Source: Ascidia mentula (Eukaryota > Chordata > Ascidiacea > Phlebobranchia > Ascidiidae). Taken from it: a DNA stretch of 64,000 bases. The stretch lies in contig OX387203.1 in assembly GCA_947561715.1 (NCBI GenBank), positions 4,030,001 through 4,094,000 of the forward strand, in the 5' to 3' direction. Below the pieces are notes generated by a model. It saw only the letters and a program-made list of their open reading frames with translations. It did not search any database and was not told the origin of the DNA. Both the position numbers and the translations under genes were made by a program. Positions 10,602-41,910 of this stretch are shown here, piece by piece. The stretch's first letter is position 1; each line of letters opens with the position of its first letter.

Positions 10602-10678
10602 CGCTGCAACCACAGAAGAAGAGTTCCTGTCACACGAGAAAGGACCAAGGTTCGTCATATTTTTTCTTGATCCGGAAG

Positions 10679-12784
10679 ATGGCTTTTAACATCGGCATGA
10701 CTCCCCCGCATTTTAGAAACGGAGACAATTTTAACTCATTTTTACAAGTTTTTAATTCTTATTGCGCCAGCATAAAGGCTACCGAAGAGGTTAAGAAGCA
10801 CCTTTTCTTAACAAATGTTGACAAAGACTTTATATGGGATATTCAAAACGGGGCCGATAATCTGTACGAAATGCAATTTGAAGAGATAGTTACTAAAGCC
10901 AAAGCAGTCGGAGTAAACGCCACTGGCCAATGCGCGCTAAGAAGCCAGTTGGTCAACCGAATCCAAGGGCCACAAGAAGACGGTAGAACTTTCGTGTATG
11001 CCATAGAAGCTTTAGCCGCCCGTGCGTACCCGAGGGCAGCCGACGCCGCCATTAAAAATGAGGTGATGCTTCTCGCTTTATTGCGGGGTCTCAAGGACCG
11101 CCAACTAGTGGACTCAGTTAGACAAAAGTGTCCACAGCGGGATTTCAGTGTTTGTGCTAAAATGGTCGTCGAGTCCGATGTGTCACACGGCTCTCTTCCC
11201 GTTACATCGATAAGTTCAACCCGAAATCCTGAGTTGGTCGAACTCAAAAACACTTTGGTCGAGCTTAATTCGAATGTGCAGCGATCTATTGATAGCTTTC
11301 GTAACGAGCTCGATGCCATGCGCCGTGATTTCGACGTTCTCCAGCGACCCGGACCACCAAGGTTGCGCCCAAGTAAGTCTACAAGCGCTTGCTACAACTG
11401 TGGGGTACGTGGCCATGTGGCAAAAAATTGTTGTCGACCACGCGGCGGCGATAGGACGATTAAATCTACACCTTTTAGACCATCAAGTCAACAATCCCCA
11501 TCGCAGGTGGTGAACACCGCCCAGCAAAGGCCGACACCAAGTAAGTCGCGGGTTACCGTGCAAGGAATAGCCAAGACGAACAAACAAAATCGCTACCTGA
11601 ACACATTGTTGGGAGATCGGATCGTGTGCGCTTTAGTAGACACCGGCGCGACAATAAGCGTATTAAACCGTCGCGTATATAAGTCACTTAAAGCTACGCC
11701 TAATGGGGTGTTACAACCCTTACCGTTGGAAACAGAGTATGTCAACGCTTCCGGAGAAGTTATTTTGATGGACGGCGCTGTCGATGTTGACGTAAGGATT
11801 TGCGGGTTACGCTTATCGCAAAGAATGTGCGTGACACGCTACATTCAAGAAGAATGCATTTTAGGCCTGGACTTCATTCAGAGCAACGGTTGCCAACTCT
11901 GTTACAAAAAAATGTTGTTCTACGTTGGATCGGGTTCCGCGGCTCTACTTTCTTCCCCCTTCCACTGTAAACGCACAGATGTACGTCTAAAAGAAGATGT
12001 GACGATCCCACCGTTTTCAGAGGTATGCGTTGTTGGTTCATTCATAAGGAATCCCCCAGAAAATGTCCCTAGTGCGATGCAAGTTCTTGTTGAGAAAAAC
12101 CTTGACTTCACACTCCGAAATAGTTTACTCGGCGGAACTTATGTAACTATAACTTCGCAAGCAACTGTTCCGGTATTTTTAGCAAATTTGTCCGACGACC
12201 CGGTGAGGTTGCTTGCAGATTCGCATGTTGCTCGCCTGACTCCGATACTGACCTCCGGCAACGTCACATGTTCGTCTGACGACAACTGTGTTGCAGTGGA
12301 ATCCTTTCCACCGCCAGGTTGTGAGTGCGAAGACAGAGGATGCATCAACAGTGAATATATTGCTTCGATCACGACAACAGCGCAACGAACCCCAAAGGCC
12401 GGCCGCTCAGGAGCGGGTAGGATTATAGATTCCGTTTCAATTAATGAGGGACTGACGTCCGCTCAGAAAAAACGTGTCGAAGAATTAATTTCTAGGAAAC
12501 AAGCCGCGTTTTGCACAGAGGCAGGGGATCTCGGTCGGACCCACTTGGCCGAACACGCGATAGATACAGGTGATCATGCACCGGTCCGACAACCGCCACG
12601 ACGGATGGCCCCAGGAAACAAAAGGAAAGTGGAGGAAATTGTCGGGGAGATGGAGCAACAGGGTTTGGTGCGCCCTTCGCAATCGCCGTGGTCAAGTCCC
12701 GTCGTTCTGGTTCGGAAAAAGTCTGGTGAGACGAGGTTTTGTGTGGATTACCGGCAAATAAACATTCTTACATCAATGCTGTAA
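10679..12784 (+). CDS. Gypsy Gag - protease - truncated reverse transcriptase
   Basis: The ATG at 10679 (MAFNIGM) is preferred over the upstream non-ATG start. The Gag region fills the first part. A CCHC zinc knuckle (CYNCGVRGHVAKNC) lies at about residues 237-250 and an aspartic protease signature (ALVDTGAT) at about 318-325. The beginning of the reverse transcriptase (LVRPSQSPWSSPVVLVRKK, then FCVDYRQIN) starts at about residue 662. The frame then ends within a few codons because the next part of RT, including the YxDD catalytic motif, is deleted. Gag and Pol are in one continuous frame up to that point. Codon use is less AT-rich than the host flanks. Confidence 0.9.
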   Translation: MAFNIGMTPPHFRNGDNFNSFLQVFNSYCASIKATEEVKKHLFLTNVDKDFIWDIQNGADNLYEMQFEEIVTKAKAVGVNATGQCALRSQLVNRIQGPQEDGRTFVYAIEALAARAYPRAADAAIKNEVMLLALLRGLKDRQLVDSVRQKCPQRDFSVCAKMVVESDVSHGSLPVTSISSTRNPELVELKNTLVELNSNVQRSIDSFRNELDAMRRDFDVLQRPGPPRLRPSKSTSACYNCGVRGHVAKNCCRPRGGDRTIKSTPFRPSSQQSPSQVVNTAQQRPTPSKSRVTVQGIAKTNKQNRYLNTLLGDRIVCALVDTGATISVLNRRVYKSLKATPNGVLQPLPLETEYVNASGEVILMDGAVDVDVRICGLRLSQRMCVTRYIQEECILGLDFIQSNGCQLCYKKMLFYVGSGSAALLSSPFHCKRTDVRLKEDVTIPPFSEVCVVGSFIRNPPENVPSAMQVLVEKNLDFTLRNSLLGGTYVTITSQATVPVFLANLSDDPVRLLADSHVARLTPILTSGNVTCSSDDNCVAVESFPPPGCECEDRGCINSEYIASITTTAQRTPKAGRSGAGRIIDSVSINEGLTSAQKKRVEELISRKQAAFCTEAGDLGRTHLAEHAIDTGDHAPVRQPPRRMAPGNKRKVEEIVGEMEQQGLVRPSQSPWSSPVVLVRKKSGETRFCVDYRQINILTSML

Positions 12785-14985
12785 GTTCCTGGCCTACCCC
12801 GAGGAGTGTTAAACACATTCGACAATTCGTTGGCCTTACTTCTTATTATCGCAGATTTATCAAAGATTATGCTCGGGTGGCTGGTCCGTTACACAAGCTT
12901 ACAGAAAAGGGTCGAACATTCAAATGGGGGGAAGAGCAACAAGATGCATTCGACGAACTAAGGCGACGCCTTACACAAGCACCTATTTTACAGCACCCGG
13001 ACTTTTCAGCGACTTTTGTATTAGATACCGACGCTTCCAATAACGCGGTGGGATGTGTGTTGTCCCAGGTAGTAGATGGCAAAGAACATGTGATCGCCTA
13101 TGGCAGCAAATCGCTATCGAAAGCTGAGCGCAATTATTCCACTACGCGAAAAGAATTGTTAGCTGTAGTATACGCCGTTAAATTGTATAGGTGTTATTTG
13201 CTTGGCAGGCACTTTCTCCTGCGGACTGATCATTCGTCACTCCGGTGGTTGTGGAAGTCGCGGGAGATGTATGGCCAGTGTGCGCGTTGGTTTGAACGCC
13301 TCGCAGAGTACGACTTCACACTGATTCATCGCCCGGGAAAAAAACACGGCAACGCCGATGCACTAAGCCGCTTGACCAATGAAGAGGAAGAAGCGATGCC
13401 ATTTCCGGTCAACACTTCCTACGGCACAAACAGTCGTCGCAACGGTACAGAAGAAGTTTATTCCTTAGACTTGCGTCGCTCCATTGGACTGCCATACGAG
13501 GAAATAAGTAACGCCCAACACGACGACCCCGAAATTTCCCCGGCTTTTAGGTGGTTAAACCTTGGCAAGAGACCACCTTACCGAACTGTTAGGTCTGCCT
13601 CGACGATGACCAAACACCTTTGGGGGCAATTCGGGCGGTTAATCGTTCAAAACAACTTGTTGTATCAAACGAGTGACTCCTTACATCAACCGGGCGCGTG
13701 TGTGTACCGCCTTATCACTCCACAGACCACCAGAGAAACGATTATGTCCGTTTTGCACGACGCACCACTTGGCGGTGGCCATCTCGGGATGGCAAAAACC
13801 TGTTCGAAGATCGAAGAAAGACACTTCTGGCCCGGTTGGAGGACCGATGTTGAGGCATATGTCCGTTCCTGTCGCCACTGCCAAAGAAGTAAGAAGTTTA
13901 CAGCAAGGCCCCGCGCTCCGTTGGTTCCTTCCGGGGAGATGCAACCAATGGAGCGGGTCGAGGTGGACATAATGGGGCCACTTCCGGCGACCTCCAGTGG
14001 TAATCAATACGTATTGGTTGCATGCGACATATTCACTAAATACGTGCGCGCATGGCCACTCAGGACGCAAAGGGCAGAAGACGTAGCCGGGACAATGTTT
14101 CATCGTTGGTTTACGGTACACGGCGTCCCGGACGTAATCCATTCCGATCAAGGTGCAAACTTTGAATCTATTTTATTTAAAGAGCTAGCACGGTTGATGG
14201 GCTGCCGAAAGACCCGGACGACCGCGTATCATCCTCAAGGAAACGGTGCGTGCGAACGCAACAACCGAACAATACTCTCCATGATACGGAATTACGTACA
14301 GCGCGATGAACGGTGCTGGGATGAGGCGCTGTCGGCGGTGGTCGCCGCCTATAATGCGAGTGTCCATGAAAGTACAGGTGTGTCACCACATTATTTGTTA
14401 AATGGCCACGCTCTACGACTCCCAGCAGATTTATTCGGTGCTCCCGCCCAGCGCGATCCATTCCCGGAACCACTGGAAGGGCTACGCGCTAGGCTCCAGT
14501 TAGCTGAAGAGGTGGCCCGTGAAACGTTGCGGAAACAAAGACGGCGCATGGCGTCGCAGTACGACCGACATAAGAGGGGCAAACCGCTGAATGTGGGTGA
14601 TTTTGTTCTCTTAACAGACCCCGCGGTGAAGCCAGGGATGGCAAGGAAATTCCACCTTCCGTTCAAAGGCCCGTACAAAGTGGTGGACATCAAGTCAGCC
14701 GTGGCGTATGAGATCGAGGACGAAGAAGGACACCGAAAAGTCGTCCATTATAATCGCCTCAAACAAATTCAAGGTGAAGGGGCGGACAAGACGGAGGGGC
14801 GACCAACCGTGGAAGAGGAAGTCCGGACATTGCCACCTACGGGAGACCCCACGACACAAGTGGTGACCTGGACCAATATCACCGAAAACGAAGAAAATGC
14901 GCAGGCACCGAACTCTCGCGATGACAACGGAATTGCCAGTCGCCTTCGCGTAAATCGCCGTCCCACTCAGCGCTATTCCCCATAA
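12770..14985 (+). CDS. Gypsy RNase H - integrase (remainder of Pol, out of frame)
   Basis: This open frame is shifted relative to the Gag frame. It begins after the deletion with the RT connection segment (SSWPTPRSVKHIRQFVGLTSYYRRFIKDY). The RNase H domain follows (LDTDASNNAVGCVLSQ, ending GNADALSRL). Next come the integrase HHCC zinc-binding region (GGGHLGMAKTCSKIEERHFWP, CRHCQRS) and the catalytic core with its D, D and E (VDIMGPL, IHSDQGANF, HPQGNGACERNN). The chain ends with a GPY/F module (FKGPYKVVDI). The RNase H and integrase motifs look intact. A first ATG at 12739 exists but lies in the wrong frame for RT and is not a natural start. Confidence 0.9.
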
Positions 14986-20173: not shown

Positions 20174-20616
20174 ATGAGCCCCAAAACAACTCATGTTGCA
20201 AATGCAACCAATTTATCAATTAAAGCAAGAGTAACAATCAACGAGTAGAAGATCTTGCTTGACCACATGAAGTTTGCTGTTGGTGGTCAGGCCGGTAAGA
20301 TTTTGTCTCTATTCTTTTTTTGTGGATCTATACACATGTAGAGATATTAACTTGCATTGTAGAATTTGAAAGAAGTGTACAATATGCAAACGAGAACCAC
20401 GAACCGGGATTCGCTGTTGTAGCTCCTGGTCAATATTTGCCTTTTGATGAGTCTGGCCCTGACGGAAAGGTTTATCTTTCCATATAGGGTACATGTGAAA
20501 ATTACCCACTGCGAAATGATTCAAGCATTATTGTTGCGATGGGAGGACAATTGCATCGGGCTGAATACGGATCGATCTGGATTGACGAAGAAGGAAACAA
20601 CCATCGTAAAAGGTAG
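20174..20616 (+). pseudogene. Small two-exon gene family, member B (two nonsense codons)
   Basis: Exon 1 is 20174-20294 (donor gtaaga) and exon 2 is 20363-20616. The reading frame is complete and unshifted from ATG to final stop, and matches the paralogues throughout (TTHVANATNLSIKARVTINE, then PGFAVVAPGQYLPFDESGPDGKV). Two TAG codons interrupt it: one at about 20246 in the place of Gln (CAG) in member C, and one at about 20486 in the place of Leu (CTG). The absence of frameshifts suggests a recent loss. A conserved exon-3 start is at about 21133. Confidence 0.8.
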
Positions 20617-20740
20617 TGGTTGTAGGGTAGTTGTTGAAGGGCACAAAATGGCAATCAAGATGATTGCACTTTTAACGTTGTGTGGGCCTCGAGTTTGAGA
20701 AAGCGTCCTTGCTGCAGCAAATATGTGTAACTTATGTGTG

Positions 20741-20793
20741 AGCTGCAGACAGATGGCCACTGTTTCGACCTAAAAGGTCTCATCAGTGCAGCT
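20741..20793 (-). ncRNA. Type I hammerhead ribozyme, arm 1
   Basis: Read on the minus strand: stem I 5' side AGCTGCA (complement of 20787-20793), core CTGATGA, stem II GACC-TTTTA-GGTC, GAA, stem III ACAG / CTGU with loop TGGCCAT, cleavage-site triplet GTC, then stem I 3' side TGCAGCT (complement of 20741-20747). All conserved catalytic positions (C3, G5, A6, G8, A9, G12, A13, A14, A15.1-U16.1, C17) are present and all three stems pair. Stem I is 7 bp without a mismatch. Confidence 0.85.
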
Positions 20794-20938
20794 GGTGTGA
20801 CTTTCAGACGACTTTGCTGGCCAAACGTAAGGTTGCACCCAGTTTGGTGCCCAACGGATGACGGTGATTGTATAATCACCACAAAGTGGAAGTCTTTGCT
20901 TGGCCGTTTGGTCAGCAAAGTCGTCTGAAAGTCACACC

Positions 20939-20991
20939 AGCTGCACTGATGAGACCTTTTAGGTCGAAACAGTGGCTATCTGTCTGCAGCT
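20939..20991 (+). ncRNA. Type I hammerhead ribozyme, arm 2
   Basis: Plus-strand copy with the same organisation: stem I 20939-20945 with 20985-20991, core CTGATGA 20946-20952, stem II 20953-20956 with 20962-20965 (loop TTTTA), GAA 20966-20968, stem III 20969-20972 with 20980-20983 (7-nt loop), predicted cleavage after C20984 (GTC). It differs from arm 1 only in the stem III loop (TGGCTAT). Helix I is the open stem. Known metazoan hammerheads sit in retrozymes, SINE-like repeats and Penelope-like elements. Confidence 0.88.
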
Positions 20992-21409
20992 TACACAATT
21001 TATATTATTGGCTCCGCTTTGCTTATCTTATGTGTAACTTTTGTTTGATGTGTAATAACTATTTATATTGTTTTATTTGTCGTTTGTCCTGCATTAAGTC
21101 CCAGTTTTCTAAAACACATGGAATATTTTCAGATAAGAATCATACAAAGAACGGAAGGTTAAGAATGAACTACCGGATTGGAAAACATGGGGACATTTAA
21201 ATTTAGTTGATCACGCGCCCAACAATAACTCTCAAAATATTGTTCATTAAGTCGTTTTCTTGCCTATGTACGACAAAGGATAGATCAAATATTTTGCAAA
21301 ACGTTCGCCAAATGTTGTGTATACGTGTATGTTGCGGACATACCATCGAAAACAACATGGGAGCATTAGGATAGTTTTTTTCACAACCATAAAGGGTAGG
21401 CCAAGTGTG

Positions 21410-22809: not shown

Positions 22810-25707
22810 TTAATACTTCTTTCCCGGTAACCGTTAATTCACATCGGGTTCGGACTTATCCCACTCTAACTAAATTAACGCTGGTGTCACCTCTCCGTGT
22901 GTGTGCCTGTCACGGATGGGTAAAAGTAATTCGGTAATTATCTCTCTCACCCCTGTTAACTCACTCAAATCAGGCTAAGGACCAAGGCCAGGTAGCCCTG
23001 CGTTTAGTCAGGCTAAGAAGTCCCCGCTTCTGAGTTGGCCACCGAGGTCCGAAAACACACTTTATGCTCCATCAGGGAGCGCCCCACCAGGGGGCAAGTG
23101 TCCCATCAGGGGGCATAGACAGGCGGCCAACTCAGAAGCGGGCGCACGAGGAGATTAGTCAGCTAATGATTTTTCAAAATTTAAGAAAAATTTGCGTACG
23201 TCCCCTTGCTTTTTCTGGATATTTTGTTTAGGTCGGGTTAGGGTTTTGCTTACCATTAACGATACTAAGCGGGACTGAGAGTGATTTCTTGTTACTACGA
23301 GGGGAATCAGGAGCTATTTCGTTCATGGTTTATTACCGGGACTTACTACAATGGACATATTCGTATTTTGCATTCAACGTTTCAGGACTGGGGTTAGACT
23401 ATGTTATGATAATTATTGACCTTGGTCTACAGATTAGGTCACCTATTTGTGATATTATTAAGCAGGGCAGTACACATACTTTACTCGTGGTTTATTATCG
23501 GGACTTATTGTCAGTGAGACCGAGTTATACCGCTTCAGGGTTATGCCCGGGACTTAGTGAGGGATAGACAACGATCTGGCAGTTATTGACCGGATTTACA
23601 TTAGGAGAGACTTAGTTGTGACCATTATTATGTAGGTGGAGGTGTGAACATATATATCGCTCTTGGTTTATTACCGGGACCGGACATAGGAGTAGTTTTC
23701 TTTGACTGTTCAGGGTTATGCCCGGAGGTTGCTGAAGGTTAGACTGAGATAGTACAATTATTCACAGGGGCTTAGATTATGCTTTCAAGATTTATTAATT
23801 TGCTTATTGCATAGGGTGGGTTAAGTAATTTATCGGGATAGACCTCCATATTAAGAAGGGTCGCCAGTAAGTGTTTAACGGTGAATGTGAATAGTTCGAA
23901 CCCGACGTGACATATCGGTTATAGGGGAAAGTTACCTTTACCGGGGTTCGAACTCGGGTGCAGAGAATTAGAAGAATGAGACTTTAACCTCTGCACCACA
24001 ACTGGCGACGGCTAGCGACGTCTTTTAATTGTCCTTGTACCTCAAATCGTCTTAAGGTAAAACATCTGCATTAAGGAAGATAAAAGGACAATTATTTTAT
24101 CATACCTCGGTCACCGGCCTGGGTGTAAATGTTACAACTCCCATCTCGTAATGATCGGCACCACAGTTCGAACCACCGTCAAGTTGGGCTTGTCCCAATT
24201 ATTTCTCGGCAAAAACCTATACAATCAGAAAGCTAAAAGGGCAATCAGGTAACCAAACTATCATCATGAATCGTGGTGTAGAGGTTACAACTCCCATCTC
24301 ATAATGATCTGCACCACAGTTCGAAACCCCGTCAAGCTGGGCTTGTCCCAATTATTTTGGGAAAACACCTATCCAATCAGAAAGCTAAAAGGGCAATTAG
24401 GTTATCAAACTATCATCATGAATCGTGGTGTAGAGGTTACAACTCCCATCTCATAATGATCTGCACCACAGTTCGAAACCCCGTCAAGCTGGGCTTGTCC
24501 CAATTATTTTGGGAAAACACCTATCCAATCAGAAAGCTAAAAGGGCAATTAGGTTATCAAGCTATCATCATGAATCGTGGTGTAGAGGTTGCAACTCCCA
24601 TCTCATAATGCTCGGCACTGCAGTTCGAAACCCCGTCAAGTTGGGCTTGTCCCAATTATTTTGGGAAAAAACCTATCCAATCAGAAAGCTAAAAGGGCAA
24701 TTAGGTTACCAAACTATCGTTATGAATCGTGGTGTAGAGGTTACAACTCCAATCTCATAATGCTCGGCACCACAGTTCGAACCCCCGTCAAGCTGGGCTT
24801 GTCCCAATTATTTTGGGAAAAAACCTATCCAATCAGAAAGCTAAAAGGGCAATTAGGTTACCAAACTATCATCATGAATCGTGGTGTAGAGGTTACAACT
24901 CCCATCTCATAATGCTCGGCACCACAGTTCGAACCCCCGTCAAGTTGGGCTTGTCCCATTTATTTCTCGGCAAAAACCTATACAATCAGAAAGCTAAAAG
25001 GGCAATTAGGTTACCAAACTATACTCATGAGTCATGGTGTAGAGGTTGCAACATCCATCTAATAATGATCTGCACCACAGTTCGAAACCCCGTCAAGCTG
25101 GGCTTGTCCCAATTATTTTGGGAAAACACCTATCCAATCAGAAAGCTAAAAGGGCAATTAGGTTATCAAACTATCATCATGAATCATGGTGTAGAGGTTA
25201 CAACTCCCATCTCATAATGCTCGGCACCTTAGTTCGAACCCCCGTCAAGTTGGGCGTATCCCAATTATTTTAGGCAAAAACCTATACAATCAGAAAGCTA
25301 AAAGGGCAATTAGGTTATCAAACTATCATCATGAATCACGGTTTAGAGGTTACAACTCCCATATCATAATGCTCTGCACCACAGTTAGAACCCCCGTCAA
25401 GTTGGGCTTGTCCCAATTATTTTTGGGCAAAAACCTATAAAATAAGATAGCTAAAAGGGCAATTAGGTTACCAAACCATCGTCAACAGTCGTAGTGTAGA
25501 GGTTACAATTCCCATCTCATAATGGTATGCAACACAGTTCGAATCCCGGTCAAGTTGGGCTTGTCTCAATTATTTTGGGGCAACAACCTATACAATAAGA
25601 AAGCTAAAAGGGCAATTAGGTTACCAAACTATCGTCACCAGCTGTGGTGTAGAGGTTAACGCCCCCCTCTATTGATGCTCTGCACCACAGTTCGAACCCC
25701 GGTAAAG
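22810..25707 (+). repeat. Higher-order repeat, copy 1 (2898 bp)
   Basis: Begins at ttaatacttctttcccgg and ends before its next occurrence. It contains, in order: a pyrimidine-rich segment; an 18-bp inverted repeat (23023-23040 with 23125-23142); about 900 bp with repeated accgggactta / gggttatgcccgg words; an antisense tRNA-like unit at about 23935-24010; then eleven tandem tRNA-like monomers of about 152 bp (24110-25707). Nearly identical to copies 2 and 3. A 92-codon ORF at 23289 recurs unchanged in copies 2 and 3 but is probably not coding. Confidence 0.9.
24110..25707 (+). repeat. Tandem 152-bp tRNA-like monomers in copy 1
   Basis: Each monomer has an A box (TGGTGTAGAGG, a full match to TRGYNNARNNG). 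About 45 bp later there is a B box (GTTCGAACC, a full match to GWTCRANNC). A T-run (attatttt) follows about 35 bp after that, all in plus orientation. B boxes are at about 24170, 24319, 24472, 24625, 24777, 24929, 25081, 25232, 25387 (degenerate, gttagaacc), 25538 and 25690. A full tRNA cloverleaf is not formed, so these are tRNA-derived units and not tRNA genes. Each could be a short pol III transcription unit. Confidence 0.85.
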
Positions 25708-28454
25708 TTAATACTTCTTTCCCGGTAACCGTTAATTCACATCGGGTTCGGACTTATCCCACTCTAACTAAATTAACGCTGGTGTCACCTCTCCGTGTGT
25801 GTGCCTGTCACGGATGGGTAAAAGTAATTCGGTAATTATCTCTCTCACCCCTGTTAACTCACTCAAATCAGGCTAAGGACCAAGGCCAGGTAGCCCTGCG
25901 TTTAGTCAGGCTAAGAAGTCCCCGCTTCTGAGTTGGCCACCGAGGTCCGAAAACACACTTTATGCTCCATCAGGGAGCGCCCCACCAGGGGGCAAGTGTC
26001 CCATCAGGGGGCATAGACAGGTGGCCAACTCAGAAGCGGCCGCACGAGGAGATTAGTCAGCTAATGATTTTTCAAAATTTAAGAAAAATTTGCGTACGTC
26101 CCCTTGCTTTTTCTGGATATTTTGTTTAGGTCGGGTTAGGGTTTTGCTTACCATTAACGATACTAAGCGGGACTGAGAGTGATTTCTTGTTACTACGAGG
26201 GGAATCAGGAGCTATTTCGTTCATGGTTTATTACCGGGACTTACTACAATGGACATATTCGTATTTTGCATTCAACGTTTCAGGACTGGGGTTAGACTAT
26301 GTTATGATAATTATTGACCTTGGTCTACAGATTAGGTCACCTATTTGTGATATTATTAAGCAGGGCAGTACACATACTTTACTCGTGGTTTATTATCGGG
26401 ACTTATTGTCAGTGAGACCGAGTTATACCGCTTCAGGGTTATGCCCGGGACTTAGTGAGGGATAGACAACGATCTGGCAGTTATTGATCGGATTTACATT
26501 AGGAGAGACTTAGTTGTGACCATTATTATGTAGGTGGAGGTGTGAACATATATATCGCTCTTGGTTTATTACCGGGACCGGACATAGGAGTAGTTTTCTT
26601 TGACTGTTCAGGGTTATGCCCGGAGGTTGCTGAAGGTTAGACTGAGATAGTACAATTATTCACAGGGGCTTAGATTATTCTTTCAAGATTTATTAATTTG
26701 CTTATTGCATAGGGTGGGTTAAGTAATTTATCGGGATAGACCTCCATATTAAGAAGGGTCGCCAGTAAGTGTTTAACGGTGAATGTGAATAGTTCGAACC
26801 CGACGTGACATATCGGTTATAGGGGAAAGTTACCTTTACCGGGGTTCGAACTCGGGTGCAGAGAATTAGAAGAATGAGACTTTAACCTCTGCACCACAAC
26901 TGGCGACGGCTAGCGACGTCTTTTAATTGTCCTTGTACCTCAAATCGTCTTAAGGTAAAACATCTGCATTAAGGAAGATAAAAGGACAATTATTTTATCA
27001 TACCTCGGTCACCGGCCTGGGTGTAAATGTTACAACTCCCATCTCGTAATGATCGGCACCACAGTTCGAACCACCGTCAAGTTGGGCTTGTCCCAAATTT
27101 TTTCTCGGCAAAAACCTATACAATCAGAAAGCTAAAAGGGCAATCAGGTAACCAAACTATCATCATGAATCGTGGTGTAGAGGTTACAACTCCCATCTCA
27201 TAATGATCTGCACCACAGTTCGAAACCCCGTCAAGCTGGGCTTGTCCCAATTATTTTGGGAAAACACCTATCCAATCAGAAAGCTAAAAGGGCAATTAGG
27301 TTATCAAGCTATCATCATGAATCGTGGTGTAGAGGTTGCAACTCCCATCTCATAATGCTCGGCACTGCAGTTCGAAACCCCGTCAAGTTGGGCTTGTCCC
27401 AATTATTTTGGGAAAAAACCTATCCAATCAGAAAGCTAAAAGGGCAATTAGGTTACCAAACTATCGTTATGAATCGTGGTGTAGAGGTTACAACTCCAAT
27501 CTCATAATGCTCGGCACCACAGTTCGAACCCCCGTCAAGCTGGGCTTGTCCCAATTATTTTGGGAAAAAACCTATCCAATCAGAAAGCTAAAAGGGCAAT
27601 TAGGTTACCAAACTATCATCATGAATCGTGGTGTAGAGGTTACAACTCCCATCTCATAATGCTCGGCACCACAGTTCGAACCCCCGTCAAGTTGGGCTTG
27701 TCCCATTTATTTCTCGGCAAAAACCTATACAATCAGAAAGCTAAAAGGGCAATTAGGTTACCAAACTATACTCATGAGTCATGGTGTAGAGGTTACAACA
27801 TCCATCTAATAATGATCTGCACCACAGTTCGAAACCCCGTCAAGCTGGGCTTGTCCCAATTATTTTGGGAAAACACCTATCCAATCAGAAAGCTAAAAGG
27901 GCAATTAGGTTATCAAACTATCATCATGAATCATGGTGTAGAGGTTACAACTCCCATCTCATAATGCTCGGCACCTTAGTTCGAACCCCCGTCAAGTTGG
28001 GCGTATCCCAATTATTTTAGGCAAAAACCTATACAATCAGAAAGCTAAAAGGGCAATTAGGTTATCAAACTATCATCTTGAATCGTGGTGTAGAGGTTAC
28101 AACTCCCATCTCATAATGCTCTGCACCACAGTTAGAACCCCCGTCAAGTTGGGCTTGTCCCAATTATTTTTGGGCAAAAACCTATAAAATAAGATAGCTA
28201 AAAGGGCAATTAGGTTACCAAACCATCGTCAACAGTCGTAGTGTAGAGGTTACAATTCCCATCTCATAATGGTATGCAACACAGTTCGAATCCCGGTCAA
28301 GTTGGGCTTGTCTCAATTATTTTGGGGCAACAACCTATACAATAAGAAAGCTAAAAGGGCAATTAGGTTACCAAACTATCGTCACCAGCCGTGGTGTAGA
28401 GGTTAACGCCCCCCTCTATTGATGCTCTGCACCACAGTTCGAACCCCGGTAAAG
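25708..28454 (+). repeat. Higher-order repeat, copy 2 (2747 bp)
   Basis: Same order of parts as copy 1 and nearly identical in sequence. It is shorter by about one monomer (151 bp): ten tRNA-like monomers instead of eleven. The missing unit corresponds to 24357-24508 of copy 1. Confidence 0.9.
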
Positions 28455-31400
28455 TTAATACTTCTTTCCCGGTAACCGTTAATTCACATCGGGTTCGGAC
28501 TTATCCCACTCTAACTAAATTAACGCTGGTGTCACCTCTCCGTGTGTGTGCCTGTCACGGATGGGTAAAAGTAATTCGGTAATTATCTCTCTCACCCCTG
28601 TTAACTCACTCAAATCAGGCTAAGGACCAAGGCCAGGTAGCCCTGCGTTTAGTCAGGCTAAGAAGTCCCCGCTTCTGAGTTGGCCACCGAGGTCCGAAAA
28701 CACACTTTATGCTCCATCAGGGAGCGCCCCACCAGGGGGCAAGTGTCCCATCAGGGGGCATAGACAGGTGGCCAACTCAGAAGCGGGCGCACGAGGAGAT
28801 TAGTCAGCTAATGATTTTTCAAAATTTAAGAAAAATTTGCGTACGTCCCCTTGCTTTTTCTGGATATTTTGTTTAGGTCGGGTTAGGGTTTTGCTTACCA
28901 TTAACGATACTAAGCGGGACTGAGAGTGATTTCTTGTTACTACGAGGGGAATCAGGAGCTATTTCGTTCATGGTTTATTACCGGGACTTACTACAATGGA
29001 CATATTCGTATTTTGCATTCAACGTTTCAGGACTGGGGTTAGACTATGTTATGATAATTATTGACCTTGGTCTACAGATTAGGTCACCTATTTGTGATAT
29101 TATTAAGCAGGGCAGTACACATACTTTACTCGTGGTTTATTATCGGGACTTATTGTCAGTGAGACCGAGTTATACCGCTTCAGGGTTATGCCCGGGACTT
29201 AGTGAGGGATAGACAACGATCTGGCAGTTATTGATCGGATTTACATTAGGAGAGACTTAGTTGTGACCATTATTATGTAGGTGGAGGTGTGAACATATAT
29301 ATCGCTCTTGGTTTATTACCGGGACCGGACATAGGAGTAGTTTTCTTTGACTGTTCAGGGTTATGCCCGGAGGTTGCTGAAGGTTAGACTGAGATAGGAC
29401 AATTATTCACAGGGGCTTAGATTATTCTTTCAAGATTTATTAATTTGCTTATTGCATAGGGTGGGTTAAGTAATTTATCGGGATAGACCTCCATATTAAG
29501 AAGGGTCGCCAGTAAGTGTTTAACGGTGAATGTGAATAGTTCAAACCCGACGTGACATATCGGTTATAGGGGAAAGTTACCTTTAACGGGGTTCGAACTC
29601 GGGTGCAGAGAATTAGAAGAATGAGACTTTAACCTCTGCACCACAACTGGCGACGGCTAGCGACGTCTTTTAATTGTCCTTGTACCTCAAATCGTCTTAA
29701 GGTAAAACATCTGCATTAAGGAAGATAAAAGGACAATTATTTTATCATACCTCGGTCACCGGCCTGGGTGTAAATGTTACAACTCCCATCTCGTAATGAT
29801 CGGCACCACAGTTCGAACCACCGTCAAGTTGGGCTTGTCCCAATTATTTCTCGGCAAAAACCTATACAATCAGAAAGCTAAAAGGGCAATCAGGTTACCA
29901 AACTATCATCATGAATCGTGGTGTAGAGGTTACAACTCCCATCTCATAATGATCTGCACCACAGTTCGAAACCCCGTCAAGCTGGGCTTGTCCCAATTAT
30001 TTTGGGAAAACACCTATCCAATCAGAAAGCTAAAAGGGCAATTAGGTTATCAAACTATCATCATGAATCGTGGTGTAGAGGTTACAACTCCCATCTCATA
30101 ATGATCTGCACCACAGTTCGAAACCCCGTCAAGCTGGGCTTGTCCCAATTATTTTGGGAAAACACCTATCCAATCAGAAAGCTAAAAGGGCAATTAGGTT
30201 ATCAAGCTATCATCATGAATCGTGGTGTAGAGGTTGCAACTCCCATCTCATAATGCTCGGCACTGCAGTTCGAAACCCCGTCAAGTTGGGCTTGTCCCAA
30301 TTATTTTGGGAAAAAACCTATCCAATCAGAAAGCTAAAAGGGCAATTAGGTTACCAAACTATCGTTATGAATCGTGGTGTAGAGGTTACAACTCCAATCT
30401 CATAATGCTCGGCACCACAGTTCGAACCCCCGTCAAGCTGGGCTTGTCCCAATTATTTTGGGGAAAAACCTATCCAATCAGAAAGCTAAAAGGGCAATTA
30501 GGTTACCAAACTATCATCATGAATCGTGGTGTAGAGGTTACAACTCCCATCTCATAATGCTCGGCACCACAGTTCGAACCCCCGTCAAGTTGGGCTTGTC
30601 CCATTTATTTCTCGGCAAAAACCTATACAATCAGAAAGCTAAAAGGGCAATTAGGTTACCAAACTATACTCATGAGTCATGGTGTAGAGGTTACAACATC
30701 CATCTAATAATGATCTGCACCACAGTTCGAAACCCCGTCAAGCTGGGCTTGTCCCAATTATTTTGGGAAAACACCTATCCAATCAGAAAGCTAAAAGGGC
30801 AATTAGGTTATCAAACTATCATCATGAGTCATGGTGTAGAGGTTACAACATCCATCTAATAATGATCTGCACCACAGTTCGAAACCCCGTCAAGCTGGGC
30901 TTGTCCCAATTATTTTGGGAAAACACCTATCCAATCAGAAAGCTAAAAGGGCAATTAGGTTATCAAACTATCATCATGAATCATGGTGTAGAGGTTACAA
31001 CTCCCATCTCATAATGCTCGGCACCTTAGTTCGAACCCCCGTCAAGTTGGGCGTATCCCAATTATTTTAGGCAAAAACCTATACAATCAGAAAGCTAAAA
31101 GGGCAATTAGGTTATCAAACTATCGTCTTGAATCGTGGTGTAGAGGTTACAACTCCCATCTCATAATGCTCTGCACCACAGTTAGAACCCCCGTCAAGTT
31201 GGGCTTGTCCCAATTATTTTTGGGCAAAAACCTATAAAATAAGATAGCTAAAAGGGCAATTAGGTTACCAAACCATCGTCAACAGTCGTAGTGTAGAGGT
31301 TACAATTCCCATCTCATAATGGTATGCAACACAGTTCGAATCCCGGTCAAGTTGGGCTTGTCTCAATTATTTTGGGGCAACAACCTATACAATAAGAAAG

Positions 31401-31504
31401 CTAAAAGGGCAATTAGGTTACCAAACTATCGTCACCAGCCGTGGTGTAGAGGTTAACGCCCCCCTCTATTGATGCTCTGCACCACAGTTCGAACCCCGGT
31501 AAAG
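28455..31504 (+). repeat. Higher-order repeat, copy 3 (3050 bp)
   Basis: Same organisation as copies 1 and 2 with twelve tRNA-like monomers, so it is longer than copy 1 by one monomer (152 bp). The extra unit is a duplicate of the one at about 30763-30910. Confidence 0.9.
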
Positions 31505-33500
31505 TTAATACTTCTTTCCCGGTAACCGTTAATTCACATCGGGTTCGGACTTATCCCACTCTAACTAAATTAACGCTGGTGTCACCTCTCCGTGTGTGTG
31601 CCTGTCACGGATGGGTAAAAGTAATTCGGTAATTATCTCTCTCACCCCTGTTAACTCACTCAAATCAGGCTAAGGACCGAGGCCAGGTAGCCCTGCGTTT
31701 AGTCAGGCTAAGAAGTCCCCGCTTCTGAGTTGGCCACCGAGGTCCGAAAACACACTTTATGCTCCATCAGGGAGCGCCCCACCAGGGGGCAAGTGTCCCA
31801 TCAGGGGGCATAGACAGGTGGCCAACTCAGAAGCGGGCGCACGAGGAGATTAGTCAGCTAATGATTTTTCAAAATTTAAGAAAAATTTGCGTACGTCCCC
31901 TTGCTTTTTCTGGATATTTTGTTTAGGTCGGGTTAGGGTTTTGCTTACCATTAACGATACTAAGCGGGACTGAGAGTGATTTCTTGTTTCTACGGGGGGA
32001 ATCAGGAGCTATTTCGTTGATGGTTTATTACCGGGACTTACTACAATGGACATATTCGTATTTTGCATTTAACGTTTCAGGACTGAGCCCGTGACTTATT
32101 TGGGGGTTAGACTACGTTATGATAATTATTGACCTTGGTCTACAGATTAGGTCACATATTTGTGATATTATTAGGCAGGGCATGACACATACTTTGCTCC
32201 TGGTTTATTATCGGGACTTATTGTCAGTGAGACCGAATTATACCGCTTCAGGGTTATGCCCGGGACTTAGTGGGGGATAGACAACGATCTGGCAGTTATT
32301 GACCGGATTTACATTAGGAGAGACTTAGTTGTGACCATTATTATGTAGGTACATGTGTGAACATATATATCGCTCTTGGTTTATTACCGGGACCGGACAT
32401 AGGAGTAGTTTTCTTTGACTGTTCAGGGTTATGCCCGAAGCTTGCTGAAGGTTAGACTGAGATAGTACAATTTTTCACAGGGACTTACATTATTACTTCA
32501 GGATTTATTAATTCGCCTTTTATGGAGGGTGAGTAAGATATTTATCGGAACAGGCCTCCATATTAAGGAGGGTCGCCAGTAAGTGTTTATCGGTGAATGG
32601 GAATAGTTCGAACCCGACGTGACTTATCGGTTATAGGGGAAAGTTACCTTTACCGGGGTTCGAACTCGGGTGCAGAGCATTACAAGAATGAGTCTTTAAC
32701 CTCTGCACCACAACTGGCGACGGCTAGCGACGTCATTTAATTGTCCTTGTACCTCAAATCGTCTTAAGGTAAAACATCTGCATTAAGGAAGATAAAAGGG
32801 CAATTAATTCATCAAACCACCGTCACCAGCCTGGGATAGAGGTTACAACTCCCATCTCGTATAACCGGCACGTCAGTTCGAAACCCCGTCAAGTTGGGCT
32901 TGTCCCAATTATTTTTGGGCAAAAACCTATCCATTCAGGAAGCTAAAAAGGTAATCAGGTTACCAAACTATCGTCATGAATCGTGGTGTAGAGGTTACAA
33001 CTTCCATCTCATAATGCTCGGCACCACAGTTCGAACCCCCGTCAAGTTGGGCTTGTCCCAATTATTTTGGACAAAAACCTATACAATCAGAAAGCTAAAA
33101 GGGTAATTAGTTTACCAAACTATCGTCTTGAGTCGTGGTTTAGAGGTTACAACTCCCATCTAATAATGCACTGCACCACAGTTCGAACCCCGTCAAGTTG
33201 GGCTTGTCCCAATTATTTTGGACAAAAAACTATACAATCAGAAAGCTAAAAGGGTAATTAGTTTACCAAACTATCGTCATGAGTCGTGGTGTAGAGGTTA
33301 CAACTCTCTTCTCATAATGCACTGCACCACAGTTCGAAACCCCGTCAAGTAGGGCTTGTTCCAATTATTTTTCGGCAAAAACTATACAATATGAAAGCTA
33401 AAAGGGCAATTAGGTTACCAAACTATCGTCACCAGCCGTGGTGTAGAGGTTAACGCCTCCTCCATTGATGCTCTGCACCACAGTTCGAACCCCGGTAAAG
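31505..33500 (+). repeat. Higher-order repeat, copy 4 (1996 bp, shortened)
   Basis: Keeps the inverted repeat, the accgggactta block (with an extra segment gagcccgtgacttatttggggg at about 32085-32110, lacking in copies 1-3), the antisense tRNA-like unit (about 32650-32730) and only five forward monomers (about 32815-33500). It is more diverged than copies 1-3. Confidence 0.85.
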
Positions 33501-34963
33501 TTAATACTTCTTTCCCGGTAACCGTTAATTCACATCGGGTTCGGACTTATCCCACTCTAACTAAATTCACGCTGGTGTCACCTCTGCGTGTGTGTGCCTG
33601 TCACGGATGGGTAAAAATAATTCGGTAATTATCTCTCTCACCCCTGTTAACTCACTCAAATCAGGCTAAGGACCAAGGCCAGGTAGCCCTGCGTTTAGTC
33701 AGGCTAAGAAGTCCCCGCTTCTGAGTTGGCCACCGAGGTCCGAAAACACACTTTATGCTCCACCAGGGAGCGCCCCACCAGGGGACAGGTGGCCAACTCG
33801 GAAGCGGGCGCACGAGGAGATTAGTCAGCTAATGATTTTTCAAAATTTAAGAAAAATTTGCGTGTGTCCCCTTGCTTTTTCTGGATATTTTGTTTAGGTC
33901 GGGTTAGGGTTTTGCTTACCATTAACGATACTAAGCGGGACTGAGAGTGATTTCTTGTTACTACGGGGGGAATCAGGAGCTATTTCGTTTATGGTTTATT
34001 ACCGGGACTTAATACAATGGACATATTCGTATTTTGCATTTAACGTTTCAGGACTGAGCCCGTGACTTATTTGGGGTTTAGACTATGTTATGATAATTAT
34101 TGACTTTGCTCTACATACTTTGCTCGTGGTTTATTATCGGGACTTATTGTCAGTGAGACCGAGTTATACCGCTTCAGGGTTATGCCCGGGACTTAGTGGG
34201 GGATAGACAACGATCTGGCAGTTATTGACCGGATTTACATTAGGAGAGACTTAGTTGTGACCATTATTATGTAGGTGTAGGTGTGAACATATATATCGCT
34301 CTTGGTTTAGTACCGGAACCGGACATAGGAGTAGTTTTCTTTGACTGTTCAGGGTTATGCCCGCAGCTTGCTGAAGGTTAGACTGAGATAGGACAATTAT
34401 TCACAGGGGCTTACATTATTCTTTCAAGATTTATTTATTTGCTTATTGCAGAGGGTGGGTTAAGATATTCATCGGGACAGACCTCCATATTAAGAAGGGT
34501 CGCCAGTAAGTGCTTAACGGTGAATGTGAATAGTTCGAACCCGACGTGACTTATCGGTTATAGGGGAAAGTTACCTTTACCGGGGTTCGAACTCGGGTGC
34601 AGAGCATTACAAGAATGAGACTTTAACCTCTGCACCACAACTGGCGACGGCTAGCGACGTCTTTTAATTGTCCTTGTACCTCAAATCGTCTTAAGGTAAA
34701 ACATCTGCATTAAGGAAGATAAAAGGGCAATTATTTCATCAAACCACCGTCACCAGCCTGGGTGTAGAGGTTACAACTCCCAGCTCGTAATGATCGGCAC
34801 CACAGTTCGAAACCCCGTCAAATTGGGCTTGTCCCAATTATTTTTGGGAAAAAACCTACAAAATAAGATAGCTAAAAGGGCAATTAGGTTACCAAACCAT
34901 CGTCGAGGTTAACGCTTCCCTCTATTAATTCTCTGCACCACAGTTCGAATCCCCGTATAGTTA

Positions 34964-35560
34964 GCTGAGTAAAACTTTTAAATCAATCTTTCAGACAGCC
35001 CTTTTAAAGATGTTTTTATTTTTGTCAGAAAAATATATTTCGCCCTGAAAAGGGCATCATCAGTTTCTGCAAAGTGTATAAAACAGCGTAAAATAACGAA
35101 GTGGAAGTCTGTCACATTAAGGAAAGTACCTTGATAAAAATTAAAAAAATTAAAAATTAGATAATGCAAATAAAAACCTGGATATGTAAGAAAAGAACTA
35201 GTAACTGACTGCCAGTATAATTCCAACAAAAAATATGTCGCCCAAAACCTGACAAAACTCGCGAGCAAGTCCAACATCTGAATGTACACGTCACACGATA
35301 TACGACGCCAAAAAATGCAACGAACCGTAAAGAGGAAAAAACACTACAAAGAAGGGAACACGAGGTTCGAACTTTTGAGCCTTTAGGCGGACAATGATTG
35401 TTGGCAGTGCCACACAATCGTGACGACATAAAACGCTACAGCAAAACACGAAGAGCAATTGAAAACAAACAAGGCACATTGCAAATATACTATTTGCATA
35501 CAGGTGTGATCATACTCTGCACGTTGATCTGTGCCCGTGTCCTATGCAACCACATATCCC
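34964..35560 (-). mobile_element. Retroelement fragment, probably Penelope-like
   Basis: 597 bp inserted into the array and flanked by the 13-bp direct repeat ccccgtatagtta (34951-34963 and 35561-35573). No GIY-YIG or RT domain is present, so it would be a short 5'-truncated copy. The assignment rests on the hammerhead-like motif at 35025-35069, because Penelope-like elements are known to carry minimal hammerheads, and on the insertion style. Other retroelement classes remain possible. Confidence 0.55.
35025..35069 (-). ncRNA. Minimal hammerhead-like motif in the inserted fragment
   Basis: Minus strand: CAGAAA (stem I), CTGATGA core, then T, stem II GCCC-TTTTCA-GGGC, GAAA, a very short AU-only helix III region, and TTTCTG closing stem I (6 bp). 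The core and GAAA are canonical. The unpaired T before stem II and the unclear NUH site make activity uncertain. Confidence 0.55.
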
Positions 35561-36906: not shown

Positions 36907-36990
36907 CGCGCATTTTCGCCACCGACGGGTCACCTTACCTGTCCTAGTGTAGCAAATCCTTTAATCATTCAATTTAATTTATTGTTGACT

Positions 36991-39870
36991 GTTGTACTTT
37001 TATTTTGGTGGTACTCACTTTCTGACAAATATATAAACAGGTGTATCTTTTGATTGAGACCAGTTTTCTCTTAAATTTCGACTGATTCGCATTGGTTTCG
37101 TCATTCACGAAGCTGCACAACAAAAATTAGACTTCAAAACGCATGTTTAAAATTTCAAAAAATAATTTTCTTGTTAACTGTTGTACTTTTATTTTGGTGG
37201 TACTCACTTTCTGACAAATATACAAACAGTTGTATCTTTTGATTGAGACCAGTTTTCACTTAAATTTCGACTGATTCGCATTGGTTTCGTCATTCACGAA
37301 GCTGCACAACAAAAATTAGACTTCAAAACGCATGTTTAAAATTTCAAAAAATAATTTTCTTGTTAACTGTTGTACTTTTATTTTGGTGGTACTCACTTTC
37401 TGACAAATATATAAACAGTTGTATCTTTTGATTGAGACCAGTTTTCACTTAAATTTCGACTGATTCGCATTGGTTTCGTCATTCATGAAGCTGCATAACA
37501 AAAATTAGACTTTAAAACGCATGTTTAAAATTTCAAAAAAATAATTTTCTTCTTGACTGTTGTACTTTTAGTTTGGTGGCATTCACTTTCTGACAAATAT
37601 ATAAACAGTTGTATCTTGTGATTGTGACCAGTTTTCACTTAAATTTCGACTGAATCGCATTGGTTTCGTCATTCACGAAGCTGCACAACAAAAATTAGAC
37701 TTCAAAACGCATGTTTAAAATTTCAAAAAATAATTTTCTTGTTAACTGTTGTACTTTTATTTTGGTGGCACTCACTTTCTGACAAATATACAAACAGTTG
37801 TATCTTTTGATTGAGACCAGTTTTCACTTAAATTTCGACTGATTCGCATTGGTTTCGTCATTCACGAAGCTGCACAACAAAAATTAGACTTCAAAACGCA
37901 TGTTTAAAATTTCAAAAAATAATTTTCTTGTTAACTGTTGTACTTTTATTTTGGTGGCACTCACTTTCTGACAAATATATAAACAGTTGTATCTTTTGAT
38001 TGAGACCAGTTTTCACTTAAATTTCGACTGATTCGCATTGGTTTCGTCATTCATGAAGCTGCATAACAAAAATTAGACTTTAAAACGCATGTTTAAAATT
38101 TCAAAAAAATAATTTTCTTCTTGACTGTTGTACTTTTAGTTTGGTGGCATTCACTTTCTGACAAATATATAAACAGTTGTATCTTGTGATTGTGACCAGT
38201 TTTCACTTAAATTTCGACTGATTCGCATTGGTTTCGTCATTCACGAAGCTGCACAACAAAAATTAGACTTCAAAACGCATGTTTAAAATTTCAAAAAATA
38301 ATTTTCTTCTTGACTGTTGTACTTTTATTTTGGTGGCACTCACTTTCTGACAAATATATAAACAGTTGTATCTTGTGATTGTGACCAGTTTTCACTTAAA
38401 TTTCGATTGATTCGCATTGGTTTCGTCATTCACGAAGCTGCACAACAAAAATTAGACTTCAAAACGCATGTTTAAAATTTCAAAAAATAATTTTCTTCTT
38501 AACTGTTGTACTTTTATTTTGGTGGCATTCACTTTCTGACAAATATATAAACAGTTGTATCTTGTGATTGTGACCAGTTTTCACTTAAATTTCGACTGAT
38601 TCGCATTGGTTTCGTCATTCACGAAGCTGCACAACAAAAATTAGACTTCAAAACGCATGTTTAAAATTTCAAAAAATAATTTTCTTGTTAACTGTTGTAC
38701 TTTTATTTTGGTGGCATTCACTTTCTGACAAATATATAAACAGTTGTATCTTGTGATTGTGACCAGTTTTCACTTAAATTTCGATTGATTCGCATTGGTT
38801 TCGTCATTCACGAAGCTGCACAACAAAAATTAGACTTCAAAACGCATGTTTAAAATTTCAAAAAATAATTTTCTTCTTAACTGTTGTACTTTTATTTTGG
38901 TGGCATTCACTTTCTGACAAATATATAAACAGTTGTATCTTGTGATTGTGACCAGTTTTCACTTAAATTTCGACTGATTCGCATTGGTTTCGTCATTCAC
39001 GAAGCTGCACAACAAAAATTAGACTTCAAAACGCATGTTTAAAATTTCAAAAAATAATTTTCTTGTTAACTGTTGTACTTTTATTTTGGTGGCACTCACT
39101 TTCTGACAAATATATAAACAGTTGTATCTTTTGATTGAGACCAGTTTTCACTTAAATTTCGACTGATTCGCATTGGTTTCGTCATTCACGAAGCTGCACA
39201 ACAAAAATTAGACTTTAAAATGCATGTTTAAAATTTCAAAAAAAAATTTTCTTCTTGACTGTTGTACTTTTATTTTGGTGGCACTCACTTTCTGACAAAT
39301 ATATAAACAGTTGTATCTTGTGATTGTGACCAGTTTTCACTTAAATTTCGATTGATTCGCATTGGTTTCGTCATTCACGAAGCTGCACAACAAAAATTAG
39401 ACTTCAAAACGCATGTTTAAAATTTCAAAAAATAATTTTCTTCTTAACTGTTGTACTTTTATTTTGGTGGCATTCACTTTCTGACAAATATATAAACAGT
39501 TGTATCTTGTGATTGTGACCAGTTTTCACTTAAATTTCGACTGATTCGCATTGGTTTCGTCATTCACGAAGCTGCACAACAAAAATTAGACTTCAAAACG
39601 CATGTTTAAAATTTCAAAAAATAATTTTCTTCTTAACTGTTGTACTTTTATTTTGGTGGCACTAACTTTCTGATAAATATATAAACAGTTGTATCTTGCG
39701 ATTGCGACCAGTTTTTACTTAAATTTCGACTGATTTGCATTAATTTTGTCAATTATGAAGCTCCACAACAAAAATTAGCCTTAAAAACACATGTTTAAAA
39801 TTTCAAGTAAATAGCATTCTTGTTGACTGTTGTTCTTTTATTTTGGTGGTATTCACTTTCTGCTAGCTTG
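36991..39870 (+). repeat. 189-bp satellite array, 15 copies
   Basis: Unit starts (gttgtactttt) at 36991, 37180, 37369, 37559, 37748, 37937, 38127, 38316, 38505, 38694, 38883, 39072, 39261, 39450, 39639 and a final partial at 39829. Period is 189 bp, or 190 where an A-run gains one base. AT-rich, no coding potential. Units 2-4 and 5-7 share the same private variants (for example catgaagctgcataac and ttttagtttggtggcattc), showing a trimer duplicated as a block. The last units are more diverged. Confidence 0.93.
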
Positions 39871-41701: not shown

Positions 41702-41750
41702 AGGTGAGAAAAGTATTCCCAACTTTTAGTAACCTTAAACAAGGTGTATA

Positions 41751-41910
41751 AGTTGCAGACAGATGGCCACTGTTTCGACCTAAAAGGTCTTATCAGTGCA
41801 GCTGGTGCGACTATCAGACGACTTTGCTGACCATACGGCCAAGCAAAGACTTCCACTTTGTGGTGACTATACAATCACCGTCATCCGTTGGGCACCAAAC
41901 TAGGTGCAAC
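41751..41910 (-). repeat. Hammerhead-bearing small repeat, monomer copy
   Basis: A monomer in the minus orientation related to 20829-20991, with a body including caaagtggaagtctttgc and its hammerhead at 41751-41803. The ribozyme core has CTGATAA instead of CTGATGA (the catalytic G8 is A) and one stem I mismatch. It is predicted inactive. It lies directly after the last recognisable exon of the DNase I-like remnant. Confidence 0.7.

Follow-up and report, generated by a model that had tools for sequence, protein, structure and literature searches.

Two type I hammerhead ribozyme sequences stand head-to-head in a short fold-back repeat of the ascidian Ascidia mentula. As judged from its sequence, the repeat belongs to a retrozyme family with a 285-nt non-coding unit. 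We conclude that it is probably a single insertion of a non-LTR retrozyme of the metazoan type, which the enzyme of a Penelope-like element (PLE) mobilised with priming on both target strands. The repeat lies in the stretch of 64,000 nucleotides that was analysed here, called the window in the following; genome-wide searches covered the 195.8-Mb assembly, in which the window is part of contig C71.

Retrozymes and PLE fold-backs are each already known. According to the main text of Cervera and de la Pena 2020 (PMC7229834), metazoan retrozymes have a GC content below 50%, occur as linear and circular RNA and undergo self-cleavage, and PLEs are named there only as a strong candidate for mobilising them. 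The words inverted, opposite and orientation are absent from that main text. PLEs with inverted pLTRs were described by Arkhipova and colleagues 2013 (PMC3846280), and self-priming is the explanation given for Penelope of A. vaga in the parts of that article cited here. As far as the cited sections of Frangieh and colleagues 2024 (PMC11167929) go, published PLEs carry minimal hammerheads, and a lizard PLE protein cuts and extends both target strands, prefers AT-rich DNA for cutting and starts reverse transcription (RT) from two internal RNA sites bounding the tail; in vitro, the strands did not differ in start site and hammerhead cutting was not needed. Fold-back retrozymes and a strict pairing of two start sites were not found in the literature searched.

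In this study, we establish the unit of this family, the ends of its insertions, their target-site duplications, their strand order, the combination of one short with one long end and the parallel to PLEs of the same genome.

Results

Hammerhead sequences of the window element

The original prediction had placed one type I hammerhead with an intact core on each strand, head-to-head, and this was confirmed (20741-20793, minus strand; 20939-20991, plus strand). Read by eye, the sequences give a stem I of 7 bp (AGCUGCA/UGCAGCU), stem II GACC/GGUC and stem III ACAG/CUGU, and the cleavage triplet is GUC. The cuts are predicted after the minus-strand C at 20748 and after C20984. A pattern combining core, stem II and CGAAAC (CTGATGAGN{6,30}CGAAAC) has two matches in the window, against 0.01 expected.

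The covariance check proposed with the prediction returned no hammerhead at the cutoff. Over the whole window no Rfam family was found at or above its gathering score; in a relaxed search of 20600-21150 the best hammerhead score was 19.9 bits for RF03152 (cutoff 56.3), RF00008 reached 18.0 bits (cutoff 48.5), while the matches listed did not include the type I model. The same search matched SSRC8_2, a bacterial sRNA (18.4 bits, E 0.0057, cutoff 72), apparently through the hairpin, and this was treated as chance.

Genome-wide, a generic hammerhead pattern gave 1632 matches as compared to 15 for the reversed control. Among the first approximately 100 of the 1632, from which stem II variants were typed by hand, differing classes of stem II still pair (GACC/GGTC, GGTC/GACC, GGCTG/CAGCC). 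Of 37 distinct variants, 24 have 4/4 pairs, 11 have three, one has two and one has one. When the 3' halves were re-dealt randomly (200 deals), full pairing occurred in 19.8 variants on average and in 24 at most. The stem II count is thus weak evidence, and covariation was dropped as proof. The window sequences are taken as type I hammerheads, with catalysis predicted, since the core is intact and three stems can pair, the genome-wide count exceeds that of the reversed control and differing stems II still pair. In structure prediction, which leaves out tertiary contacts, an isolated arm in its hammerhead fold has -15.7 kcal/mol against a minimum of -18.0 to -19.3 kcal/mol. Base pairing between the hammerhead III loop and the tail (GTGGCC with GGCTCCAC), which if true would have made cutting and the start of RT exclusive, was absent from the minimum-energy folds and was dropped.

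A loose pattern (CTGANGAN{6,36}GAAA) matches the window eight times, with 4.4 matches expected. A further hammerhead-like core, CTGATGATGCCCTTTTCAGGGCGAAA, lies at 35038-35063 on the minus strand; by eye it shows no clear stem III or cleavage triplet, and is perhaps an old PLE-type ribozyme or a chance match.

Extent and parts of the window element

The prediction had taken 20741-20991 as the element. The complete fold-back insertion is longer, 295 bp (20734-21028), since it is bounded by an exact 12-mer, the target-site duplication TATGTGTAACTT, at 20722-20733 on the left and 21029-21040 on the right. Unit positions are numbered from the first base 3' of the cut site. The left arm (20734-20827) is a minus-strand copy of the 285-nt unit from about 206 to 285 and then 1 to 11; the right arm (20826-21028) is a plus-strand copy from about 126 to 285 and then 1 to 47. 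The left outer end thus lies at a short site (unit 11) and the right one at a long site (unit 47), and at the inner junction the arms overlap by 2 nt. Only the right arm carries the tail of about 30 nt from the short to the long start site (20998-21028, plus strand). Within the element, 20735-20827 and 20905-20997 form an inverted repeat of 93 nt each, 97% complementary, with a spacer of 77 nt.

An ORF of at least 150 aa overlapping 20734-21028 was not found. By this measure the element is non-autonomous, and it lacks the ORF with RT and GIY-YIG domains by which we recognise a PLE. The GC content of the surrounding 4 kb, a figure for the surroundings and not for the unit, is 41.7%.

A second, partial copy of the unit is present at 41745-41911 on the minus strand (95% complementary to 20831-20997). 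Its core reads CTGATAAG, with G8 changed to A, and because of this change its ribozyme is probably dead. A 10-nt 'duplication' flanking this copy was discarded, as it is element sequence.

Other features of the window are a region with two long overlapping ORFs at 10667-14985 (plus strand), with aspartyl protease/zinc knuckle and RNase H/integrase domains, which looks like an LTR retrotransposon; four blocks of a 152-bp tandem repeat at 24122-33502, of 4 to 11 copies each and about 1.3 kb apart; and a 189-bp satellite array at 36988-39862 (15.2 copies, 96% matches). Each 152-bp unit contains a GTTCGAA resembling a tRNA B box; ARAGORN, also used to look for a tRNA-like head as in tRNA-derived SINEs, found no tRNA in the window.

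A retrozyme family with a 285-nt unit

The expectation of a small, non-coding retrozyme-like element was borne out, with a unit of 285 nt instead of the monomer of about 160 nt that had been proposed. Neighbours on the same strand less than 500 bp apart are spaced by 284-286 nt (10/10), and the 39-nt ribozyme has 1462 copies in the genome at up to 3 mismatches (control 0). We analysed 87 loci, namely 27 of the 30 best whole-element matches (three duplicates were dropped) and 60 loci, called C1 loci in the following, which are 60 of the 79 clusters among the 100 exact ribozymes listed. Since every C1 locus was chosen for an exact ribozyme, this sample leans to young copies.

The head-to-head arrangement had been called unusual. 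It is found in 22 of the 60 C1 loci, besides 35 single and 3 tandem loci and no tail-to-tail locus, and it is a PLE architecture already known from the cited parts of PMC3846280. One tail-to-tail adjacency was seen among the 87 loci (L008), apparently between two neighbouring elements. Fold-backs flanked by a duplication range from 85 to 1401 bp; the family contains arms of several units, repeated with a period of 285 nt, as well as single copies whose 5' ends vary.

Duplications, strand order and paired ends

Exact flanking duplications of 10 nt or more were found at 46 of the 87 loci, as compared to 1 of 300 pairs of flanks taken from different loci; the count had been 47 until the match at L034 was removed as element sequence. 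With at least 12 nt the figures are 38/87 and 0/300. In fold-backs a single duplication encloses both arms, with a median of 12 nt in 28 distinct cases. Among the 100 exact matches listed, all ten pairs of opposite-strand ribozymes within 1.5 kb have the order (-,+), and the order (+,-) is absent from all duplication-flanked loci.

The outer ends of the fold-backs are not alike. Where a duplication of at least 9 nt is present, 30/31 fold-backs have one end near unit 15 and one near 45. Three loci were dropped as segmental copies because their duplication recurs at another locus, and in the remaining 28 the short/long rule holds for 27, the window element among them (medians 15 and 45; binomial p 1.1e-7 against independent ends). 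The exception is L010, with ends at 27 and 38. The 30 nt between the short and the long site resemble the 'tail' of PLEs. The 13 inverted loci lacking a duplication of at least 9 nt, classed by raw alignment ends, comprise eight with one short and one long end and five that do not fit (L008, L013, L019, L026 and L046); L065, counted as fitting, and L046 come from incompletely covered clusters, and in another alignment the right arm of L046 ends at unit 50. At L002, the right arm stops within a base of the hammerhead cut site (CTGTC), as if primed on cut RNA.

Arms, inner junctions and single inserts

The exact hammerheads of the C1 loci continue across the cut site in 77 of 78 cases, therefore the template RNA was uncut, re-ligated or multimeric there. 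In L071, whose left arm has 1.3 and right arm 3.6 units, one variant string is present in both arms and in no other analysed locus. Likewise, L046 (0.5 and 5.9 units) has a variant string seven times that is in no other analysed locus. These variants fit a rolling-circle process in which one RNA is copied from both sides, or they may reflect later homogenisation within the arrays. The two arms of one element are on average 95.6% identical, as compared to 93.5% between elements (42 of the 44 inverted loci aligned; L068 and L092 gave no alignment), and L010, L016, L021, L026 and others match other elements more closely than their own arm. An earlier computation (own 0.916, others 0.915) was discarded, as it gave 91% at L001, where direct comparison gives 97%.

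Inner junctions of the 44 inverted loci overlap by 0-6 nt in 26, contain 1-39 unaligned bases in 15 and show a larger overlap in 3, the larger overlaps partly reflecting how BLAST extends matches. There are 38 different inner junctions among 41 non-duplicate inverted loci, and arm lengths and targets vary as well, so the fold-backs do not constitute a single functional unit that is conserved. In three cases, two loci that differ in their flanks have the same inner junction (L003/L004, L012/L021, L019/L065), which means either hot spots or that some fold-backs were re-copied.

Among the duplication-flanked single inserts, 5/19 start with an inverted match of 8-13 nt to the other start site; these remnants partly overlap the duplication, the null is 1.1% per random 20-mer and the same-type control gave 1/19. 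In the other 14 of the 19 no second-arm remnant of at least 8 nt was found. Two-strand priming may thus be general, single-arm copies included.

Penelope-like elements in the same genome

A search for GIY-YIG domains gave at least 121 matches, with 150 of 382 candidates scored. Among the 121 matches, neighbours on opposite strands within 6 kb have the order (-,+) in 17/17. All four inverted PLE pairs for which both outer flanks were compared have a duplication of 12-13 nt, and by eye all four have one short end and another end about 27-41 nt longer. The four represent two families, since three of them share one flank sequence. Head-to-head ends, a tail at one end and a duplication, the marks of an insertion that works as in PLEs, are hence found both in 27/28 retrozyme fold-backs and in 4/4 PLE pairs. 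The PLE flanks inspected match a loose hammerhead pattern in 4/4 cases. In the right member of the C52 pair, one ORF encodes an RT domain (PF00078, 42.4 bits, cutoff 29.6) upstream of GIY-YIG, which is the order of PLEs. A PF00078 search of the genome (150 of 1254 candidates) was swamped by other RTs, and by eye none of the 150 fell within one of the GIY-YIG ORFs listed. A PLE family with a tail sequence matching that of the retrozyme was not found; the link between retrozyme and PLE is architectural.

Further observations concern the PLEs themselves. At G000:C67:6134028-6146916, there is an array of GIY-YIG frames, the longest of 892 aa, in the order -,-,+,+,+ and spaced by 2,870 bp where successive frames are on the same strand; it repeats the inverted-multimer layout at a tenfold larger scale. 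In L093-L101, which represent two PLE families, a hairpin is predicted whose loop contains the short start site or lies next to it, and the long site follows shortly after this hairpin. This hairpin reads TGCCAG..CTGGCA in one family and CACCAG..CTGGTG in the other, a compensatory change; two families are too few to claim more from predicted hairpins. The inverted PLE insertions L096/L099 and L100/L101 have different flanks and nearly the same duplication (ATTGATTCTATA and AGTATTGATTCTA), hinting at a target preference.

Discussion

A PLE-type insertion of retrozyme RNA from both target strands is, with high probability, the origin of the window element. Tandem retrozyme copies would be transcribed and their RNA cut by the hammerheads, and host ligation would give circles, or multimers would persist. 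The PLE reverse transcriptase/GIY-YIG endonuclease would cut the two strands at staggered positions and leave 3' overhangs of about 12 nt, which would later become the target-site duplication. Both 3' ends would prime RT on the retrozyme RNA, one at about unit 15 (short) and the other at about 45 (long). Priming on both overhangs would therefore place the arms head-to-head with the start sites outward. Extension of the two cDNAs would proceed through the hammerhead in converging directions and end at differing positions, and the cDNAs would then be joined, often with an overlap of a few nt. Among these steps, circle formation by ligation, the identity of the enzyme and the joining of the cDNAs are those that we infer. 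The paired ribozymes would be a scar of insertion, because two-strand priming yields a fold-back with the ribozyme 3' ends outward.

A further reading of the same data is offered tentatively, at slightly less than even confidence. In each event one strand would prime at the short and the other at the long site, probably on the same circular RNA and with a dimeric enzyme; rolling-circle copying would give inverted multimers with no separate second-strand synthesis. The fold-backs would then be fossil records of these events, and apparently one-armed copies would often result from the same reaction, their second arm being only a few nt long. We had held this reading at even chances and lowered it a little because three pairs of loci share inner junctions. 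These shared junctions count against the two-strand mechanism proposed above, as do L010, which breaks the rule, the 14/19 single inserts in which a second-arm remnant was not seen and the own-arm identity, which is only modestly above that between elements. Further points against it are the five inverted loci without a duplication that do not fit, the lack of a PLE family with a matching tail, the equal start sites of both strands and the dispensable hammerhead cutting in vitro, the Rfam scores below cutoff and the absence of the 150 scored RT candidates from the listed GIY-YIG ORFs.

Self-priming, in which the antisense RNA or the first cDNA snaps back and primes its own copying before the palindrome is inserted, is the main competitor and in our view improbable. 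It has been published for PLEs with palindromic junctions (PMC3846280, in the parts cited), it also yields head-to-head polarity and similar arms, and it could account for the recurrent inner junctions of the three pairs. By our reasoning, however, it should give arms ending at the same position; the outer ends differ in 27/28 fold-backs and in 4/4 PLE pairs, and for this reason we disfavour it. Unequal ends in 27/28 likewise weigh against a palindromic DNA transposon (MITE or Foldback) that carries a hammerhead-like sequence by chance. Such an element would explain terminal inverted repeats together with a target-site duplication, but the multi-unit arms with a 285-nt period and the variable 5' ends of single copies are marks of reverse transcription, which leaves this the least probable of the alternatives.

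Abundant elements and the preference of PLE cutting for AT-rich DNA could also bring two separate insertions together, the second copy having entered into or beside the first in opposite orientation, and L008 appears to be such a case of two neighbouring elements. Since one duplication encloses both arms, the order (+,-) does not occur at duplication-flanked loci and the inner junctions are mostly direct (0-6 nt overlap in 26/44), this origin is ruled out for duplication-flanked copies, and for the window element we give it very little credence. Hardly more credible is selection of the whole fold-back as a functional ribozyme switch acting on both strands, in which the hairpin competes with ribozyme folding. 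Both cores are intact, and RNA spanning the entire element is predicted to form one long, very stable hairpin (-210.9 kcal/mol, z -23.7), so that the ribozyme would be expected to be silenced in it. But inner junctions and arm lengths differ between loci, fold-backs range widely in size and the second copy in the window has a broken core. The variable inner junctions make a selected switch unlikely, and the switch suggested in the original prediction is unsupported, the product of an insertion being the better explanation.

The element can be compared with systems already described. With the metazoan non-LTR retrozymes it shares the type I hammerhead and a short tandem unit (285 nt here, 150-450 bp in the main text of PMC7229834), the lack of a long ORF, duplications of more than 4 bp (12 nt here) and co-occurring PLE-like elements. 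It differs from them in that many copies are head-to-head fold-backs and that the insertions carry PLE-type ends. The PLEs with inverted pLTRs resemble it in their head-to-head ends and target-site duplications, and a 31-bp tail is optionally present on one of their inverted pLTRs, as the tail is here on one arm (PMC3846280, parts cited). Compared with these PLEs the window element is short and without a long ORF, and the unequal ends argue against the self-priming on an antisense template by which they were explained. The Anolis PLE protein likewise cuts and extends both strands, and the spacing of its two RNA start sites, a tail of 30-40 nt, parallels the distance between the short and long sites (PMC11167929, sections cited). 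That study concerns one lizard PLE in vitro and saw no strand difference, whereas the genomic copies here pair one site with each end. Our data match its two-strand cutting and two start sites, and add the rule of one site per end.

Each arm of the fold-back copies the same start region and the ribozyme. In twin priming of LINEs, priming on the RNA likewise involves the second target strand and yields a head-to-head inversion; there, in contrast, the arms carry different parts of the RNA.

A head-to-head pair of ribozymes need not mean a switch. The rule of two different start sites separates self-priming from two-strand priming, both published for PLE insertion, by sequence alone. An enzyme that mobilises retrozymes has so far only been suggested (PMC7229834, main text), and the end rule that the retrozymes of A. 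mentula share with PLEs of the same genome makes this link concrete and testable.
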